From Pelagibacterium luteolum (GTDB lineage Bacteria; Pseudomonadota; Alphaproteobacteria; Rhizobiales; Devosiaceae): a stretch of 64,000 nt of DNA. The position numbers and the translations under genes are program-made. A model generated the notes under the pieces. It was not told where the DNA came from, did no database searches, and saw only the letters and a program-made list of their open reading frames with translations. How positions within the stretch are numbered: the stretch's first letter is position 1; the number at the start of each line of letters is the position of its first letter. Below are positions 11,831 to 61,403 of this stretch, piece after piece. The stretch spans positions 1 through 64,000 of the forward strand of contig NZ_FNCS01000012.1 of NCBI RefSeq assembly GCF_900100665.1, written 5' to 3'.

Positions 11831-12600
11831 TCAAACCTCACGAGCCACAAATCCCGGCCGGATTGGCTGAGTTGTTCCAACCGGCCACTCAAGCAAGGCA
11901 ACATCCTCACCTTGTCCGACGAGAAGCGCTCGCACGACCGCCCGACCCGAAGCACCAGTGTTTTTCAGACCCAGTTCGGTGCCGACAAACCCAGGTTCCA
12001 CAACGGGAATGGTGGTCGTTAACCTCTCGGTCTGACCCGTGCCGCCGCTTTTCGGTTCCCAGTAAGCCACCTTACGTTCGCCAGCGAGTTGTACCACCCG
12101 ATTTTGACCCTCGCCCGGTGGCATTCGGCCCAGGATCTTGGTGGTGAGATTGTCCAGAAGGTGTGCGCATCCATCGACCCCGAAGGCGGCGCGCAACTGG
12201 GCAAGTGACTGGACCAGAATGACCAGCCGGATTTGGCCCTCACGGCCAATGGCGGCAAGTCGGGGTACCGCCGTGGCGTTTCCAATCTGCGCTACCTCAT
12301 CAAGAAAGAACCAGATCGGGGTCTTTTGGCGTGATCTCGCCATACGGTCAGCAGCAGCATCGGCTGAGATTTTCAGGGCCACGCGCACCATGGCGGCGGA
12401 TAATTCGGGCAATCGCTGCGACTGACGAAGAATAAGAGCCTGTCGAGGATCCAGGCCCAAAATCCAGTTTCGGATCGAGAAGGGCTTCCCGCCGCGTCCC
12501 ATGCCGGCAAGTGTTTGCAGGGGTTGACGAAGATGAGAGAGCAGAACCGTGTAGAACGAGTGGGCCGTACGCTGCGTCGCTTCGCGCTCCATAGCCGAAC
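11831..12600 (-). pseudogene. 5'-truncated TraD-like conjugative coupling protein
   Basis: The C-terminal portion of a type IV coupling protein (TraD/TrwB ATPase). The visible family sequence starts at EREATQRTAHSFYTVL and includes the Walker B region TPIWFFLDEVAQIGN followed by LAAIGREGQIRLVILVQSLAQL, ending in PIRPGFVAREV. The N-terminal membrane anchor and Walker A are gone. The same strand upstream of about 12595 is AbiEii toxin sequence in another frame, so the open frame extending to 12787 is artefactual there. A protein could start only at an internal ATG such as 12592. It would lack the nucleotide-binding loop and cannot be a working pump. Confidence 0.85.
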
Positions 12601-13004
12601 TGATCTTCCACTGACGGCGCGACGGAGCGCAGTTCTTCAGGGTGGACCGAACCGCGCAATACGGGCGAGAGCTCGATGTGAATTCGGTCGCCTTGAAAGT
12701 CCACAAATAGCCGCAGGGCATCTTGGGCATGCTCATAGGAGCGGATGACGGTCGATCTTGGGACGGTGGCCAGTATGATATCGGCAATACGACCGAGCGC
12801 CTGGCGGATATTGGCTAGCGCGGTTTGCCGATCATCCATGGGCAGGTAGACCAGATCGATATCAACCGAGAGGCGTGGCAGGTCCCTGACAAAGAGGTTG
12901 ATTGCCGTACCGCCTTTGAGCGCGAAGCATTTCTCTTCAGCGATCAGGGGCAGAATGCGCGTTAAGAGCCTTACGCGCCGGTAGTACGGGTTGGTGGGGT
13001 CCAC
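12594..13004 (-). pseudogene. 3'-truncated AbiEii-type nucleotidyltransferase toxin
   Basis: Type IV toxin of the AbiEii/AbiGii nucleotidyltransferase family. GTG 13004 is preceded by GGAGG and lies 34 bp inside the antitoxin gene. The first 137 codons are family-like: ALKGGTAINLF followed by the catalytic SVDIDLVYLP (the GG...DxD motif), then IHIELSPVLRG and SVEDQFG. Near 12594-12600 the sequence switches into the traD fragment in a different frame; reading continues as a foreign tail to 12348. The C-terminal half, with the remaining conserved motifs, is absent, so the toxin is probably inactive. Confidence 0.82.
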
Positions 13005-13822
13005 ATGTCCTCCGGGACGGTTATCAGATATTTTGCATCGAGCTTGCCACCTTTGGCCAGCTCTCTCTTGCCGCTGCCCAGTCCCAATTCGTCGAGATTG
13101 TCGGGGGGTGGCAGCTTTTTGGCCCATGCATGGGTATGGCGTTCAGTGAGCCAGTAGAACAGGCGTCTCACTTTTACGCTCTGGCATTTTTCCAGAAGCG
13201 CCGTCAGGCGTCGCGGGGAGAGGCTGGTCATGCCTTGCAGCAATTCGTCTGCATGCGCAAAGGATATGCCGCCCGGTATGTCGGCCAGCAATTCAAGGAA
13301 AGCGCGTTCGGGCGATGACATGGTGAAGGGCCATCGGCCCTCATACGGCCCCGGGTCCTCGAAAGCGTGAAAACTCCCGCCGGCAGTGTCGTATTCCTGA
13401 TTGATCAGTCCCGTTGAACCGAGGCCCGGCAGCGGCAGATGGCGCACAAACTGCGTATCCCGGACGACGGTGTTGAGCCATTTGGGCAGGTTGTCCTTGC
13501 CATAGAGATGGATCGTGCGGCGCGACGACAACGGTAGGTAGTGGGCGAAGCCATGGAGTTCCAATGCGCTCAAGCCGCCAACCGTGAGATCCGAGCGCAA
13601 GACGTTCTGCAACGCGGATACGAGACCTTGCCAGGTCAGCCGGGTCGCCGGCCTTGTGTAAACACCAGGTGCGACGGATACGAGAAGACCGCTCTTTACA
13701 AGGTTGTCCACGCCGTGCCGGTCAAATCCGGAATCCTGTCCGGCCAGCCAAGCGCGCGTGACCGGCATACCTTCCGGCACCAGTTCAAAAAGCGTCTTTC
13801 TGCGGTCTGCGTTTGTAGGCAT
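12971..13822 (-). CDS. AbiEi-type antitoxin
   Basis: 283 aa, intact. It carries the family N-terminal winged-helix region (TRAWLAGQDSGFDRHGVDNLVKSGLLVSV ending VYTRP) and the C-terminal AbiEi domain with LTVGGLSALELHGFAHYLPL and the SPERAFLELLADIP block. AbiEi neutralises AbiEii and represses the operon by binding inverted repeats in its promoter. Two such repeats lie upstream (13844-13860 and 13917-13935). The toxin downstream is truncated, so this may be an orphan antitoxin. The ribosome binding site before ATG 13822 is poor. Confidence 0.88.
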   Translation of the reverse strand: MPTNADRRKTLFELVPEGMPVTRAWLAGQDSGFDRHGVDNLVKSGLLVSVAPGVYTRPATRLTWQGLVSALQNVLRSDLTVGGLSALELHGFAHYLPLSSRRTIHLYGKDNLPKWLNTVVRDTQFVRHLPLPGLGSTGLINQEYDTAGGSFHAFEDPGPYEGRWPFTMSSPERAFLELLADIPGGISFAHADELLQGMTSLSPRRLTALLEKCQSVKVRRLFYWLTERHTHAWAKKLPPPDNLDELGLGSGKRELAKGGKLDAKYLITVPEDMWTPPTRTTGA

Positions 13823-13935: not shown

Positions 13936-14082
13936 ATTGTCCTATTTCATAAACTGATGCGATGCGGCCCATTGGCTATCAGACGCCGCGCCGCCTCAGA
14001 ATGATAATGTATCTTACGGATACTGCTGTGTCTGGACCGGCGCGATGAATGGCGGATGAGCCCGCAAGACCGCGCGAACAAA
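13936..14082. other. Gap between divergent AbiE locus and QueC-like operon
   Basis: The rest of the 332-bp divergent intergenic region shows no protein-like frame, tRNA or strong repeat. Base composition is less GC-rich than the core chromosome to the right of 18.25 kb. Confidence 0.4.
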
Positions 14083-14147
14083 TGTCAGAAGAAAATACGG
14101 AAATCTTGACGATGTCAGAAAATATGATATGTTTTCTGCCATAGGAG
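14083..14147 (+). promoter_or_regulatory. Promoter and inverted-repeat operator of QueC-like operon
   Basis: TTGACG at 14106-14111 and TATGTT at 14128-14133 with a 16-base spacer make a plausible sigma-70 promoter. Overlapping the -10 is an inverted repeat, CAGAAAA at 14116-14122 and TTTTCTG at 14132-14138. TGTCAGAA occurs at 14083-14090 and again at 14114-14120 as a partial direct repeat. AGGAG at 14143-14147 is the ribosome binding site for ATG 14155. A repressor bound to the repeat would block the promoter; the operon's own HTH protein is the obvious candidate. Confidence 0.55.
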
Positions 14148-14154
14148 ATATGCC

Positions 14155-14721
14155 ATGACCGATGGCCCATTCAGAAATTCACGGCTGAGCACGCGCTGGC
14201 AGAAGTTCGGCGAGCAGCTCGTGAGCGACGCCGCTAGCCCCGCAGAGCGAGTCAAACAGGCATGTCACAGCATGATGACTGACGCGGGCGTGAGGGAGTT
14301 CAGCTCCATGGTGCGGGACTTGTCGTCCTGCCTGGCTCGATCGCAACTAACGCTCGATCCAGTTGCGGATGTCGAAGCCGTCATTGAGAGACACCTCATG
14401 TCGTCGCTCTCAGACATTTTGCGACGCACGCTCATAGCCAATCTCCACGATGGCGTTTCTCCTGCGGAAGCGCTGCAGCCCGCAATGGAGGCCACCACCC
14501 AAGAGTGGATAGGTATCGTGAAGAACCGCCTGGAAGAACACTGTATTCAGGCAAGAGACATGGGCGATATGAGCCGCGCCGACTATCAAAAGGGTCTTGA
14601 GCGCAACGCCGAAGCTTTCTCCAGCATAGATGTGCCGAATCTCTGCCAGGCCATGAAGGTTGGTGACAGAAGGGCTTTCAGTTCCCCACGGCTCATGACT
14701 GTGGATGAGGGGCCCGAGTGA
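14155..14721 (+). CDS. Unknown first protein of QueC-like operon
   Basis: 188 aa, no family recognised. AGGAG lies seven bases before the ATG. The protein is largely helical in appearance with no signal peptide or membrane segment. It has paired features such as REFSSMVRDLSSCLARS and VEAVIERHLMSSLSDILRR, and a glycine close to the N terminus (MTDGPF). The TGA overlaps the ATG of the QueC-like gene (TGATG), so the two products are made together. The closest analogy by position is QatB, the partner encoded beside the QueC homologue QatC in Qat defence systems, but I see no sequence proof of homology. Confidence 0.75.
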   Translation: MTDGPFRNSRLSTRWQKFGEQLVSDAASPAERVKQACHSMMTDAGVREFSSMVRDLSSCLARSQLTLDPVADVEAVIERHLMSSLSDILRRTLIANLHDGVSPAEALQPAMEATTQEWIGIVKNRLEEHCIQARDMGDMSRADYQKGLERNAEAFSSIDVPNLCQAMKVGDRRAFSSPRLMTVDEGPE

Positions 14722-16097
14722 TGAACGTCCACAATCACTCCTCCCCAACTACCAAAACTCTTGTCGTACTTGAAAGCGGCGAGAGGCCACCCGCGCGACT
14801 CCATGGGCGCGAAGAATTGGCAGAAATAGGTCAGCAAATCCGGTTTGATGCCGGAATCTTGGACTCTTTCGATGTTGCGGGGTGCCTGTCCCGGCATTTC
14901 GATCTGCTCGTTGTATGTGCGGCTATCGAACTGGCGGACAGACGTTGGGGAAGGCCCCGCGCCTGGTCACGCAATTTCAACCTGCGTATCCCAGTCATCG
15001 ATCTGGAAAGGTGGCAAAAACCGGCCGTGGCACACGGTCTGCGTCGTGCTCTGGGTTTTCTAACCGGAGATAATTGGCAGTTTACCTTTGTTCGAGCGAA
15101 GAACGGTTCACCAATCGGCATGCGTCAGATTCCTCTGGGCTTCGACAAAACCAAGAAGTTCGCTATTGCCTACAGTGATGGCTTGGATTCGCGAGCTGTC
15201 ACGAGCCTAAGCGGTGGCGAGGACGAGGCGCTCTGCATCCGTGTGGCTGGCACCCACCAGCGGCGGCAAAAAGGAGATAGTCCGTTTGAACGCATTCCAT
15301 TCGATACCCGCGACTATCGGCAGAACGAAAGCAGCTTTCGAAGCCGCAGCTTTAAGTTTGCTGCCATTACGGCAATGGCAGCGCAATTATATCAGGTGTC
15401 GCGGATCGTCGTTCCGGAAAGCGGCCAGGGGGCGTTGGGGCCCGCTATCCTGCCCTTGCACAATATCTATGCTGACTACAGGAACCATCCGGCTTTCTTT
15501 CGTCGGATGGAGCAATTCCTGCACGCCCTTCTCGACTGGAGTGTCAAGTTCGAGCAGCCGAGGCTCTGGTACACCAAGGGTCAGACGCTGCGGGACTTCC
15601 GACTCTTGCCCGGCAAGACCAACCTGGATTTGACCCAGACCCATTCCTGCTGGCAAACCCGCCGCATTGTTAACGACGGTTACCGAAGGCAATGCGGGCT
15701 ATGTGCCGCTTGTCTGCTCAGGCGGCAGAGCCTACACGCGGCGGGGATCAAGGAGGACTCCGGGACGTATGTCGTCAGGGACCTGAATGAGGCCTCCATC
15801 GCGGCCGCGCTCACCACGGCCGTTGCTGACAAAGCCGATCGGGACATCATGATCGCATATGGCAGCGCAGGTGCGAGACATCTACAGCACCTCGCCGATT
15901 TGGCTGACCAGCCGGACAAGACCCTTCACACGCATGCCTCGCAGATAGCGATTGCCACGGGTGAGACGTGTGACGAAACCACTAGAAGATTGAGTGTTAT
16001 GTTGAGTGTGCATGCTGAAGAATGGAGAGCGTTTCGGTCAGACCTGGGAGGCAACAGCTTCCTGAATAGCTGGATGGATGGGGGGCGCAATGGTTGA
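14721..16097 (+). CDS. QueC-like PP-loop ATPase
   Basis: 458 aa from ATG 14721 (a GTG three bases earlier is possible). A PP-loop, SDGLDS at residues 152-157, replaces the usual SGGxDS. A four-cysteine zinc site follows the QueC pattern, C310 in THSCW and C325/C328/C331 in RQCGLCAACLLRR. ESGQGALGP near 234 and a downstream NHPAFFRRM match the QueC active-site region. The N-terminal 145 residues (NLRIPVIDLERW, FLTGDNWQF) are an extension absent from the 220-230-aa housekeeping QueC but common in defence-associated homologues. QueC makes preQ0 from 7-carboxy-7-deazaguanine; defence versions are thought to use this chemistry on macromolecules. No other queuosine gene is nearby. Confidence 0.8.
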   Translation: MNVHNHSSPTTKTLVVLESGERPPARLHGREELAEIGQQIRFDAGILDSFDVAGCLSRHFDLLVVCAAIELADRRWGRPRAWSRNFNLRIPVIDLERWQKPAVAHGLRRALGFLTGDNWQFTFVRAKNGSPIGMRQIPLGFDKTKKFAIAYSDGLDSRAVTSLSGGEDEALCIRVAGTHQRRQKGDSPFERIPFDTRDYRQNESSFRSRSFKFAAITAMAAQLYQVSRIVVPESGQGALGPAILPLHNIYADYRNHPAFFRRMEQFLHALLDWSVKFEQPRLWYTKGQTLRDFRLLPGKTNLDLTQTHSCWQTRRIVNDGYRRQCGLCAACLLRRQSLHAAGIKEDSGTYVVRDLNEASIAAALTTAVADKADRDIMIAYGSAGARHLQHLADLADQPDKTLHTHASQIAIATGETCDETTRRLSVMLSVHAEEWRAFRSDLGGNSFLNSWMDGGRNG

Positions 16098-17280
16098 TCT
16101 TAACGAGTTGAGTTCCCAGGAGATCGGTCGACGCCTGCGGATAGCTCGCGAGAATGCCGGCGTGCGACAGGAAGAGGCAGCCCGGATCGTCGGCGTATCA
16201 CGACCCACCCTTGTATCCATTGAGCAGGGCGTGCGCCGCGTACGAATTCAGGAGATCCAGGCACTCGCCCGCCACTATGGCCTCTCTGTCAACGCGCTGC
16301 TTCGCCGGGAGGCGGTGCATACCGATCTGGTGCCAAGGTTCCGCAGGTTACGGGAGGCAGAGGACGCGGAAACTACTGAAGCGGTTCAGTTGCTCAATGA
16401 CCTGATCAAGGCCGAAGTTGAGCTGGAAAACCTACTTGGAATCCAGAAAGGCCGAAACTATCCGCCCGAGCGCGGGATCAACAGTGGTGACGTGGTTATG
16501 CTCGCAGAGCAGCATGCGGCGGAGCTGCGCGAGTGGCTTGGCATCGGACTGGGGCCGATTGCCGACGTCTTCTCACTGATTGACAGGCAGCTTGGCGTCA
16601 GACTTTACCAGCGGCGTCTATCCTCCACTTCAAAAGTGGCAGGGCTGTTCAGCTTCGATGAGGGAATTGGTGCGAGCATTCTTCTCAATGCCAATCATCC
16701 CCTTCCCCGGCGCATTCAGTCGGCAGCGCATGAGCTTGGGCATTTCTTTGGCACGCGGCAGAGCCCAGAAGTATTGGAAACGGACGAAAGGTTCCTCTCG
16801 AGGGACGAGCGCTATGCCAACGCGTTCGGCAGGTCCTTCATGGCGCCGGCTGAGAGTTTTTCCGAGAGTTTCCGACGGATCATGGAGATCACCGGAAAAA
16901 TTACGGCCAGGTTGATTATTCTCCTCGCTGACGAATACCATATCTCACGACAGGCCTGCTGCCTGCGTCTAGAAGAACTGGGTCTTGCAAAGAAAGGAAC
17001 CTGGGGCTGGTTTGAGAATAGAGGCGGCATTACTGATGAACATGCGCGTGAAGTGCTTGGAGAGTCCGCGATTGTGCGCGATCCGGCAAAGACCGATGCT
17101 GACCGACCGCTCTCGCATCGAATGAGCCTCATGGCTCATGCCGCTTGGAAGCGCGACCTGATGTCAGAAGGCCAGTTGGCCGAATTGCTAAAGATTAGCC
17201 GTCTCGAACTTCGCGGCATCATCGATCAGATTGAGCTTGAGGAAAGAGAGACTGATGACTTGGTCGAGCTCCCTGATTAG
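16090..17280 (+). CDS. HTH-Xre and ImmA/IrrE metalloprotease fusion
   Basis: 396 aa from ATG 16090, which follows a GGGGGG run and lies 8 bp inside the QueC-like gene; ATG 16078 is an alternative. Residues 10-65 form an Xre-type helix-turn-helix (RQEEAARIVGVSRPTLVSIEQG). The ImmA/IrrE (peptidase M78) domain follows, with zinc motif HELGHFF at 214-220 and the third-ligand region ERYANAFGRSFMAP. The C-terminal 120 residues are unassigned. Such proteins cleave repressors or act as repressors; ImmA frees ICEBs1 by cutting ImmR and IrrE triggers the Deinococcus radiation response. Here it is tied to a PIN nuclease by a 26-bp overlap. Confidence 0.88.
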   Translation: MVDLNELSSQEIGRRLRIARENAGVRQEEAARIVGVSRPTLVSIEQGVRRVRIQEIQALARHYGLSVNALLRREAVHTDLVPRFRRLREAEDAETTEAVQLLNDLIKAEVELENLLGIQKGRNYPPERGINSGDVVMLAEQHAAELREWLGIGLGPIADVFSLIDRQLGVRLYQRRLSSTSKVAGLFSFDEGIGASILLNANHPLPRRIQSAAHELGHFFGTRQSPEVLETDERFLSRDERYANAFGRSFMAPAESFSESFRRIMEITGKITARLIILLADEYHISRQACCLRLEELGLAKKGTWGWFENRGGITDEHAREVLGESAIVRDPAKTDADRPLSHRMSLMAHAAWKRDLMSEGQLAELLKISRLELRGIIDQIELEERETDDLVELPD

Positions 17281-17869
17281 CATAGAGGTACCATTGGTTC
17301 TCGACACGAGTGTGCTGATCAATCTTCATGCTTGCGGGAGCGGTGCACTTATTCTCAGCGCTATACCGAACCGGATTTTGGTGCCGCAGGAAGTGGCCGC
17401 CGAACTGGAACATGAAACGAGTCGGGAGAACGGCGAGCATGGGTTTCTCAGATACATTGTCGACAGCGAGATTGCCCTCATCGAGGCAATGACGGATGAG
17501 GAATATGAACTTTTTCTGCATTTAGTTACTTCTTCGCCCAGCCTCGATGATGGCGAGGCTGCAACGATCGCCATCGCATCGAAGCGCGAGCTTCGGCCAG
17601 TGCTGGACGAAAGAAGGGGCCGAAGCCGGGCAGGCGAGTATTGCGGCGACGGACACCCTGCAGGGTGGTCCTTGGATTTGCTGATGCATCCCCTCGCTTC
17701 AAAGGCTCTGGGGCAAGCCCTGGCTGTGAACGCTGTTTTCCGGGCGTTGCGAGACGGACGTATGCGGATACCGCCGGAAAGCGCCGAATCCGTAATTTCG
17801 GCTATCGGTGAAGACCGGGCTCGCGAGTGCACCTGCCTACCCAAATACAAAAGCCGGTTCCCAACCTGA
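17255..17869 (+). CDS. PIN-domain nuclease-like protein (DUF3368 type)
   Basis: 204 aa. The PIN fold acidic residues are visible: D17 in LVLDTSVLINLHACG, Glu in VPQEVAAELEHE, the SLDDGEAATIAIA block, and the VLDERRGR segment typical of DUF3368 proteins. These metal-dependent ribonuclease folds include VapC toxins. ATG 17255 with an upstream GAGGAAAG is preferred over TTG 17231. It overlaps the metalloprotease gene by 26 bp and ends the operon. No VapB-like antitoxin is encoded beside it, so the HTH-ImmA/IrrE protein is the likely controller. Confidence 0.82.
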   Translation: MTWSSSLISIEVPLVLDTSVLINLHACGSGALILSAIPNRILVPQEVAAELEHETSRENGEHGFLRYIVDSEIALIEAMTDEEYELFLHLVTSSPSLDDGEAATIAIASKRELRPVLDERRGRSRAGEYCGDGHPAGWSLDLLMHPLASKALGQALAVNAVFRALRDGRMRIPPESAESVISAIGEDRARECTCLPKYKSRFPT

Positions 17870-18202: not shown

Positions 18203-18246
18203 TTCCCAAGCTTACGACGAGGGTTCGATTCCCTTCACCCGCTCCA
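18203..18246 (+). other. 3' part of tRNA-Gly(CCC), probable attachment site
   Basis: The sequence runs from the anticodon loop (TTCCCAAG) through the variable region, the T-arm GAGGGTTCGATTCCCTT, the acceptor strand CACCCGC, discriminator T and CCA. The upstream bases do not supply the GCGGGTG acceptor strand, D-arm or anticodon stem, so this is not a complete tRNA. A 3' tRNA piece next to accessory DNA is the standard trace of integrase-mediated insertion at a tRNA gene. By that logic the intact tRNA-Gly should lie to the left, but no copy is visible in positions 1-18202. Confidence 0.75.
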
Positions 18247-61328: not shown

Positions 61329-61403
61329 TGGTGCTGCCGGAGAGATTTGAACTCTCGGCCTCTCCCTTACCAAGGGAGTGCTCTACCCCTGAGCTACGGC
61401 AGC
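61329..61403 (-). tRNA. tRNA-Thr (anticodon GGT)
   Basis: Read on the minus strand: acceptor GCTGCCG / CGGCAGC, D-arm with AGCTCAGGGGTAGAGC, anticodon arm CTCCC-TTGGTAA-GGGAG with anticodon GGT, and T-arm GAGAG-TTCAAAT-CTCTC, then discriminator A and encoded CCA. All four stems pair. It lies between the exported-protein gene and the small gene upstream of murA. Confidence 0.95.

Follow-up and report, generated by a model that had tools for sequence, protein, structure and literature searches.

Four overlapping genes in Pelagibacterium luteolum raise the question of whether a QueC-like enzyme, a small partner protein, an ImmA/IrrE metalloprotease, and a PIN-like protein belong to a single system, and what such a system might do. 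The window analyzed here is a 64,000-nucleotide stretch of DNA (assembly GCF_900100665.1, contig NZ_FNCS01000012.1, positions 1 to 64,000), and a sequence-only reading of it had proposed that these genes form one immune or addiction module. The four genes move as a group among distantly related species and have the look of an antivirus system not yet described, one that would combine an enzyme that tags protein, related to one that produces a modified RNA base, with a sensor that cuts itself and a toxin that cleaves RNA. By analogy with characterized systems, they are best read as the third immune module built on QueC-type protein conjugation, here linked with an ImmA-PIN toxin-antitoxin pair that would regulate itself. 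A described system combining QueC, ImmA, and PIN proteins was not found among the titles and abstract beginnings of the open-licence literature, and the DefensePredictor paper (PMC13092281) mentions none of QueC, Qat, and ImmA.

Organization and setting of the operon

The open reading frames all lie on the plus strand, with likely ATG starts at 14155 (g1), 14721 (g2), 16090 (g3), and 17255 (g4). The features of the operon and its downstream flank are as follows:

14155..14721, plus strand: g1, 188-aa helical partner protein, the proposed g2 substrate (ORF, N-terminus, predicted model)
14721..16097, plus strand: g2, QatC-like/QueC-family ATP-dependent enzyme, 458 aa (PADLOC QatC; PDB QatC 9vlk, 9zee; tree)
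16090..17280, plus strand: g3, HTH, ImmA/IrrE (M78) metallopeptidase, and C-terminal domain; likely autorepressor and antitoxin (Pfam; 9vzy_A; HExxH)
17255..17869, plus strand: g4, PIN-fold nuclease, likely toxin/effector (VIA; invariant acidic residues)
18222..18246, plus strand: remnant of a tRNA-Gly 3' end, perhaps a former attachment site (match to genomic tRNA-Gly genes)

The overlapping arrangement proposed from sequence is present, with g2/g3 and g3/g4 overlaps of 8 and 26 bp in the ORF coordinates, although the TGATG lies at 14719-14723, one base off the earlier position of 14718. The suggestion of a tRNA-bounded island held for one side. Two complete tRNA-Gly genes at other genomic sites have a 3' end identical to positions 18222-18246, which thus mark a tRNA scar at one side of the island, but the window contains only one tRNA gene, tRNA-Thr at 61329-61403 (ARAGORN). 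AbiE adjoins the operon as described, its AbiEii covering just half of the profile.

Conservation and mobility of the four-gene unit

All four genes were found in the same order on one strand in 96/99 homologous loci, the genome relatives examined being the best 80 of 214 confirmed. In the class-wide sample, g1 occurred in three of 385 genomes, each of which has all four genes, so that the proposed co-occurrence does not dissolve into scattered singletons. The four proteins diverge in step, their pairwise distances being correlated at 0.86-0.95 against a permuted maximum of 0.19 (60 rows), with r=0.87 for g1 and g3. The module is mobile; 14 of the 18 plasmid copies fetched were typed as conjugative or mobilizable, and a chromosomal copy resides on Paraburkholderia xenovorans chromosome 1. 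Consistent with the suggested defence-gene vicinity, named defence genes lie beside 8/14 annotated plasmid loci, a proportion that has no control set. Phage origin of the operon was rejected, as no relative was found among viral contigs or phage records. Separately, the sequence upstream of g1 in a Latescibacterota contig (L101) is the same as in Henriciella (L100), and the Latescibacterota label may therefore be a binning error.

g2 is related to QatC and keeps a QueC-type motif

The description of g2 as QueC-like, with a PP-loop and four cysteines, was borne out. g2 exceeds the cut-off of the Pfam QueC family (33.3 vs. 22 bits) but falls below that of canonical QueC TIGR00364 (22.4 vs. 150.3 bits). 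It matches the PADLOC QatC model (E=1.8e-34) and the QatC structures 9vlk and 9zee in PDB, and scores 126.9 bits against NCBIfam QatC NF041925, below the equivalog cut-off of 280. In a phylogenetic tree, the g2 family is the sister clade of QatC (support 97/98), and the QueC clade stands apart from it (100/100). Three motifs characterize the family:

15174..15191, plus strand: PP-loop SDGLDS; family form S[DEN]GxDS, with S, G, D, and S each in 95/95
15468..15491, plus strand: YADYRNHP, putative base-recognition motif; Y250 in 92/95, D252 in 95/95
15648..15713, plus strand: four-Cys zinc site, C310, C325, C328, and C331, each in 95/95

Like QatC, g2 has the signature residues P(x)4TK, ExG, RxRxxxF, and HP, the last with H in 81/95; these residues are named in the available part of PMC13329287. 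It departs from QatC in its PP-loop, where S[DEN]GxDS stands in place of SGGxDS, and in its putative pocket. Y250-x-D252-x-R254 of g2 resembles the YPDCR of QueC (12/12 QueC), whereas QatC relatives carry (S/A)TRT(T/A)HP at the position of YADYRNHP (13/13). As judged from these alignments, the Tyr-x-Asp element of QueC presumed to recognize the base is kept by g2 and replaced by Thr-x-Thr (T278/T280) in QatC. According to the available part of PMC13279940, attempts to reconstitute the QatC reaction did not succeed, and the substrate pocket of QatC is unlike those of QueC and Cap9. Because it keeps the QueC pocket motif, the g2 clade may be a tractable case for the attachment chemistry and target of QatC-like enzymes.

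The Y/D base-recognition pair is also found in Cap9, the QueC-type enzyme of type IV CBASS, and both enzymes are expected to conjugate a base to the N-terminus of a partner (PMC11996544 and PMC13279940, available parts). Unlike Cap9, which is about 185 aa in length (PMC13329287, available part), g2 is about 460 aa and has QatC-type extensions. Pfam and PADLOC revealed no CD-NTase, Cap10, or TatD among the four products, in agreement with the earlier observation on CD-NTase and TatD. The gene set likewise differs from qatABCD, as had been noted, in that ImmA and PIN genes replace QatA, QatB, and QatD. By tblastn, a KAP-type NTPase homologous to QatA (one QatA query, from locus L062) was found in 0/96 operon loci vs. 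9/12 QatC loci, the TatD-type nuclease QatD in 0/96 vs. 9/12, and QatB in 0/96 vs. 8/12.

g1 has a near-invariant N-terminus

In line with its listing as unknown in the earlier reading, the 188-aa g1 product belongs to no family above cut-off. Its best Pfam match, YjcZ, was rejected at 19.5 bits (cut-off 27). The extreme N-terminus of g1 is near-invariant:

14155..14172, plus strand: codons of the N-terminal motif M-[S/T]-D-G-P-[F/H]; 93/98 g1 ORFs

M-[S/T]-D-G-P begins 93/98 g1 ORFs (MTDGPF in the window), and D3 and G4 are kept in 62/62 non-redundant rows, in which the synonymous codons of the motif vary. The predicted model (pLDDT 89.5) has no secondary structure in residues up to 12. Fold searches gave a best E of 0.18 in Foldseek and a best Z of 7.6 in VIA, the latter usual for unrelated helical bundles.

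The position of a small helical protein with a conserved extreme N-terminus upstream of the enzyme is shared with qatABCD, and this N-terminus is comparable to the essential MGTS tail of QatB. However, the N-terminal residue of g1 is Ser/Thr, as opposed to the Gly of MGTS/MGGS. Homology of g1 to QatB found no sequence or profile support (hhalign probability 0.4%; tblastn 0/96 loci), and no QatB fold match appeared in Foldseek or VIA, whose libraries may lack QatB chains. g1 also has a conserved D-[D/E]-G at its C-terminus, but no function is claimed for it, since the probable Shine-Dalgarno sequence of g2 lies partly within the same codons.

g3 and g4 resemble an ImmA-PIN toxin-antitoxin pair

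The assignment of g3 as an HTH-ImmA/IrrE metalloprotease is supported by HTH and Peptidase_M78 domains (Pfam). Two sites stand out:

16339..16344, plus strand: F84-R85, where the HTH and peptidase parts join, a possible site of self-cleavage; F and R in 63/63, as in the VapB52 FR motif
16729..16743, plus strand: zinc-peptidase motif HELGH; H214, E215, and H218 invariant

HExxH is present in 63/63 rows. The g3 profile matches PDB 9vzy_A (E=2e-9), a protein of 393 aa; the VapB52 construct is of similar length, and 9vzy is probably VapB52. VapB52, the HTH-IrrE antitoxin of the PIN toxin in VapBC52, has the FR motif (PMC13273310, available part), and by its domain order, its FR and HExxH motifs, and its PIN partner, g3 resembles this ssDNA-triggered, self-cleaving antitoxin. 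The two differ in that no conserved Cys comparable to C229 of VapB52 was seen in the switch loop after HExxH of g3 (41 rows), and in the linkage of g3-g4 to g1-g2.

Among PADLOC models, g3 matches those of RmrA (best E=2.6e-18), capP (E=2.4e-12), and capH (E=1.7e-4). In RosmerTA (RmrA/RmrT), as is proposed here, an ImmA antitoxin lies beside a toxin, and the available part of PMC10440598 remarks that ImmA occurs in association with PIN-like domains; the present operon is distinguished by its QueC-like pair and by g4, which matches the candidate family PDC-S70 (E=2.1e-12) and no named RmrT. In CapH/CapP, an HTH repressor and an ImmA/IrrE protease control a defence operon (PMC13273310, available part). 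g3 would have both functions on one chain, and no cysteine-switch residue was seen in the loop that houses the switch in VapB52 and CapP.

The PIN-like character of g4 is weak by sequence (17.8 bits vs. a Pfam cut-off of 23.6) and emerges from its predicted fold. Nearly all matches were PIN chains in Foldseek (best E 2.2e-3, probability 1.00) and PIN/VapC chains in VIA (best Z 12.8, rmsd 2.9, 119 aligned). The g4 profile had no match among PDB sequences, so that the assignment rests on fold; D17, E50, D99, E101, and D118 are invariant in 62/62. With an HExxH protein adjoining and overlapping a toxin-like PIN-fold gene, and with the FR motif in 63/63, g3-g4 have the appearance of an ImmA/PIN toxin-antitoxin pair of a type already known.

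A palindrome in the promoter region

Two elements precede g1:

14082..14088, plus strand: half-site ATGTCAG, candidate upstream operator, 23 bp from the promoter palindrome (sequence)
14106..14116, plus strand: TTGACGATGTC, a palindrome similar to a -35 element and the likely g3 operator; TTGACNNTGTC in 81/93 loci

The TTGACNNTGTC palindrome recurs upstream of g1 in 81/93 loci, against a shuffle expectation of 0.02. The upstream half-site accompanies it in 50/81 palindrome-bearing loci, with the 23-bp spacing in 45/50. The palindrome is probably the operator of g3.

Proposed mechanism

The four genes probably, though far from certainly, form a mobile immune operon of two coupled modules, g1-g2 for conjugation and g3-g4 as toxin and antitoxin. 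Of the one-module proposal, the conserved four-gene unit stood; the role given to g2 changed, as analogy suggests that its most likely target is its partner, the g1 protein, and not a free nucleobase. In an ATP-dependent step, g2 would couple a base of the 7-deazaguanine type, or a different acid, to g1 at its free N-terminus, which reads Ser/Thr-Asp-Gly-Pro once Met has been removed, in parallel with Cap9 acting on CD-NTase in type IV CBASS and the proposed action of QatC on QatB. g3 would bind the palindrome, keep operon expression low, and hold g4 until infection or DNA damage (ssDNA) triggered self-cutting at the FR site, which would derepress the operon and release g4, leading to RNA cleavage and growth arrest. 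Tagged g1 might act directly or gate g3-g4. The specific version, in which g2 tags the g1 Ser/Thr with 7-deazaguanine and the tagged tail controls release of the PIN RNase g4 by an ssDNA-sensing g3, is put forward tentatively, its chances being somewhat below even.

The operon joins two recently described themes, nucleobase protein tagging and ssDNA-triggered ImmA antitoxins, and links them behind a defined operator-like site. If the proposal is true, QatC-like enzymes would be a general "tagging" cassette, whose clades differ both in the N-terminus that is tagged (MGTS, MGHQ, M[S/T]DGP) and in the effectors that go with it.

Host queuosine genes and the g2 substrate

In the genome to which the window belongs, queC, queD, and a queE-like gene lie near one another on contig C33. 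Canonical QueC was above cut-off in 16 of 22 operon hosts (9 genomes of the order plus 13 hand-picked from the 80 named loci) vs. 88/199 genomes of the order, relatedness not being controlled; within the order it was present in 6/9 hosts, a number too small for a conclusion. These figures do not support the idea that the operon strictly depends on queuosine genes of the host. The remaining six of the 22 hosts have neither canonical QueC (best E above 1e-8) nor a match to QueE TIGR04508, and QueD is absent as well from the three of them that were among 9 hosts tested for it. The expected base may therefore be absent there, which counts against 7-carboxy-7-deazaguanine as the substrate.

These hosts lend weight to a quite plausible alternative, although one we would not bet on, that g1-g2 do modify g1 but use something different from 7-carboxy-7-deazaguanine as the substrate, as suspected for QatC, whose own substrate is likewise unsettled (PMC13279940, available part). 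The YxD residues would then have a different role or bind a base of a related kind. The likeness of this motif to that of QueC, as distinct from all 13 QatC relatives, and the queuosine genes of the window's host speak for the base originally expected.

Immunity, addiction, or hitchhiking

The conjugative or mobilizable nature of most plasmid copies, together with the occurrence of an HTH-ImmA/PIN gene pair on its own in a further genome of the class (L172), would also suit an addiction module that stabilizes plasmids or islands, with g1-g2 tuning the g3-g4 pair. We consider this unlikely, given that phage defence is provided by a RosmerTA pair with broadly this architecture (PMC10440598, available part), that QatBC alone defends (PMC13279940, available part), that named defence neighbors are frequent, albeit without a control set, and that one copy is chromosomal.

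Equally, g3-g4 could be a hitchhiking toxin-antitoxin pair that guards g1-g2 from loss, the halves having no interaction; the lone pair in L172 fits this arrangement, as does the ability of QatBC to defend against lambda with no partner. Strict co-occurrence, overlapping frames in the window, a single operator-like site upstream of g1, and the correlated divergence of g1 and g3 make it improbable. Finally, the idea that g2 is the host preQ0 synthase or a degenerate copy, set in this neighborhood by chance, draws on the Pfam QueC match and is already refuted by the shortfall against TIGR00364, the separate QueC clade, the conserved gene set, and the presence in the host of a separate canonical QueC above cut-off.

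A conserved four-gene unit

The four genes overlap head to tail on the plus strand:

14155-14721, +, g1, ORF for a small helical protein
14721-16097, +, g2, ORF for a QueC/QatC-like enzyme
16090-17280, +, g3, ORF with HTH and Peptidase_M78 domains (ImmA/IrrE)
17255-17869, +, g4, ORF for a PIN-fold protein, the PIN assignment being weak by sequence

The sequence-only reading took these genes for one module, possibly an undescribed defence system, and no description of the four-gene system was found in the literature searched. Among 297 genomes searched for g2 in the order Rhizobiales, 41 had a match, mostly to distant QueC/QatC proteins, and g1-g2-g3-g4 was present at all nine loci with a close match (E <1e-80, window included). 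Plasmid records matching more than 80% of g2 numbered 25; the four genes were present at all 18 of these that were examined, with frame breaks splitting g2 in L032 and g1 in L173. A genome-wide scan confirmed 214 relatives, the best 80 of which were combined with the window and 18 further loci (10 plasmid, 8 from the order) into a 99-locus set. All four genes occur in order on one strand at 96 of these 99 loci. Some genomes are represented twice in the set; 63 of the 96 loci are non-redundant (<90% g2 identity). The exceptions are L101 and L116, where contig ends cut the operon, and L115 (7322-9881), where g3 ends early, at ~180 aa, and is followed by a second HTH-ImmA-like gene with no g4 found. 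The reverse search of 385 genomes of the class Alphaproteobacteria found g1 in three, each with the complete operon, and g4 in four. Divergence is correlated among the four proteins: their pairwise distances give coefficients of 0.86-0.95 over 60 rows, against at most 0.19 after permutation. The genes are conserved together; the system is real, widespread and apparently mobile between hosts, and g1-g4 almost certainly constitute a discrete functional unit. By mean column identity, calculated over differing row sets, g3 is the most conserved member (68%, 41 rows), followed by g2 (52%, 18), g4 (46%, 62) and g1 (38%, 62).

Named hosts of the best 80 of the 214 relatives include Alpha-, Beta- and Gammaproteobacteria, along with MAGs labelled Cyanobacteria, Latescibacterota, Thermoanaerobaculia and Geobacter. 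The Latescibacterota label is doubtful: L101 and Henriciella L100 have identical upstream sequences, and the contig may have been misbinned. In the tree, copies from Beta- and Gammaproteobacteria fall among the alphaproteobacterial ones, a pattern that fits horizontal transfer of the operon.

Relationship of g2 to QatC and QueC

The g2 protein matches QatC in PADLOC (E=1.8e-34) and the solved QatC structures 9vlk and 9zee, and scores 126.9 bits against the NCBIfam QatC model, under its equivalog cut-off of 280. Phylogenetic analysis of 33 g2 proteins from the operon (of 61 non-redundant rows), 13 QatC-type proteins and 12 QueC proteins resolved each group as one clade (support 97/98, 99/88 and 100/100, respectively), the long QueC branch being flagged by the program. 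When one annotated QatA, QatB and QatD each from Azospirillum locus L062 were used as tblastn queries, homologues were found at none of the 96 operon loci, versus 9, 8 and 9 of 12 QatC loci. The claim that the gene set differs from the anti-phage system QatABCD holds: the operon is not Qat, and its g2 clade is the sister of QatC.

The base-pocket motif is YPDCR in QueC (12/12), (S/A)TRT(T/A)HP in QatC (13/13) and Y-x-D-Y-R-N-H-P in operon g2 (Y250 92/95, D252 95/95, R254 95/95). According to the account in PMC13279940, Tyr and Asp are responsible for base recognition in QueC and Cap9 but have been lost from QatC; in a HMMER alignment to QueC structure 2pg3, the YxD motif of g2 is in register with that of QueC. 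The PP-loop of g2 is S[D/E/N]GxDS (95/95), whereas the QatC form is SGGxDS. Judged from these motifs, g2 would combine a QatC-like build with base reading more like that of QueC/Cap9.

The host genome also contains a canonical qatABCD (L045, contig C24; QatB with MGTS), so that two QatC-type systems coexist in one strain. A further QatC branch consists of ~670-aa enzymes (L046:5714-7729, L047:3232-5220, L048:5508-7556), at which QatA, QatB and QatD were not found by tblastn. At all three loci an overlapping or adjoining upstream ORF holds the likely start MGHQ[R/H]LG, another Gly-2 N-terminus.

The g1 N-terminus and its predicted modification

The g1 protein has no family match. Its model contains eight helices (pLDDT 89.5) and a disordered C-terminus; residues 1-12 are without secondary structure, with a mean pLDDT of 68 for residues 1-10. 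At the extreme N-terminus, 93 of 98 g1 ORFs read start-[S/T]-D-G-P. Variants are VDGP in L115 and RDGI in L036, and the g1 ORFs of L103, L105 and L141 are without the [S/T]DGP start. In non-redundant rows, Asp3 and Gly4 are kept in 62/62 and Pro5 in 61/62. The codons for these residues are not fixed (two are used for Asp, four for Gly and four for Pro), so selection on the N-terminus acts on the protein.

In Qat, as PMC13279940 describes it, models place the MGTS N-terminus of QatB in the active site of QatC, and the Gly of this N-terminus is essential. The CD-NTase of type IV CBASS receives 7-amido-7-deazaguanine on its N-terminal Gly (MGGS; PMC13279940, PMC11996544). The g1 protein has Ser/Thr in place of the Gly of MGTS/MGGS and is not demonstrably a QatB. 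We lean towards g2 modifying the g1 N-terminus; that the attached base is a 7-deazaguanine is a more tentative proposal. Separate queC, queD and queE-like (E=1.5e-8) genes lie on contig C33 of the window's own genome. In six of 22 hosts searched, QueC matches stayed under the cut-off (all at E >1e-8) and there was no match to QueE model TIGR04508, a narrow model that was over cut-off in one of 14 control genomes and may miss other QueE types. Three of those six were included in a nine-host search for QueD, and it was absent from all three. In such hosts, the base would not be 7-carboxy-7-deazaguanine, or would come from elsewhere, or the system would be silent.

The g3-g4 half and its putative operator

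The g3 profile matches PDB 9vzy_A (E=2e-9; 393 aa), which from its length and name we infer to be the VapB52 construct of PMC13273310. As reported there, VapB52 is an antitoxin of HTH-IrrE type whose partner is a PIN toxin; exposed to ssDNA, it undergoes self-cleavage, probably at an FR site. Likewise, g3 has an FR site (F84-R85, 63/63) and HExxH (63/63), but it is without a conserved Cys in the switch loop. The AlphaFold model of g4 (pLDDT 92.7) had no Foldseek match at E <=0.001; the best (E 2.2e-3, probability 1.00) were mostly PIN chains, and against PIN/VapC chains VIA Z reached 12.8 (rmsd 2.9, 119 residues aligned). Residues D17, E50, D99, E101 and D118 are kept in 62/62. RosmerTA systems, as presented in PMC10440598, pair ImmA antitoxins with varied toxins in phage defence, and an association of ImmA with PIN-like domains is noted there.

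Of the 93 loci with sufficient upstream sequence, 81 (53/60 non-redundant) have the palindrome TTGACNNTGTC (14106-14116 in the window) ahead of g1, 78 of them at 46-51 bp from the g1 start; dinucleotide shuffles predict it in 0.02 loci. An extra half-site accompanies it on one side or the other in 76/81 loci, upstream in 50 (spacing 23 bp in 45) and downstream in 30 (spacing 20-21 bp). Since its TTGAC half resembles a -35 element, TTGACNNTGTC is most simply read as a putative operator of g3, the sole predicted DNA-binding protein of the operon. The predicted g3-g4 pair is likely an autoregulated ImmA-PIN toxin-antitoxin. The fourth g4 match in the class search (E=1.2e-8) is L172:4123-5785, overlapping HTH-ImmA and PIN genes without g1 or g2; the g3-g4 half may derive from a stand-alone pair of this kind.

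Immediately 3' of the palindrome, window 14116-14138 holds a second inverted repeat, CAGAAAATATGATATGTTTTCTG. On plasmid pArA4 (L034:8509-9129), the annotation omits the PIN gene and gives an ORF on the minus strand instead.

Genomic context

The operon probably encodes an anti-phage or anti-element system. Its window neighbours are AbiEi, a shortened AbiEii, a TrwC-type relaxase and a coupling-protein fragment. A named defence gene (Lit, AbiE, AbiV/AbiJ, Shedu or restriction genes) lies within the 5 to 10 kb flanks at 8 of the 14 annotated plasmid loci (of 18), a count made without a control set; some of the other six hold VapBC pairs, a Fic protein, a reverse transcriptase or a dGTPase.

Annotated plasmid loci by presence of a named defence gene
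Present: L034, L035, L036, L174, L175, L176, L178, L179
Not counted: L032, L033, L059, L060, L177, L180

The window AbiEii (12348-13127) matches profile positions 1-127 of 238, the first half only, and overlaps the TrwB/TraG coupling-protein fragment, so that a shortened toxin adjoins AbiEi. A tRNA-Gly 3' end without the rest of the gene lies at 18222-18246, and a second copy, likewise without a tRNA call, is on contig C3 of the same genome. Judged by annotation and size, the Rhizobiaceae plasmids L034, L175 and L177 have the operon in a shared setting, with three hypothetical genes on the minus strand upstream of it and DUF3800 and dinB downstream.
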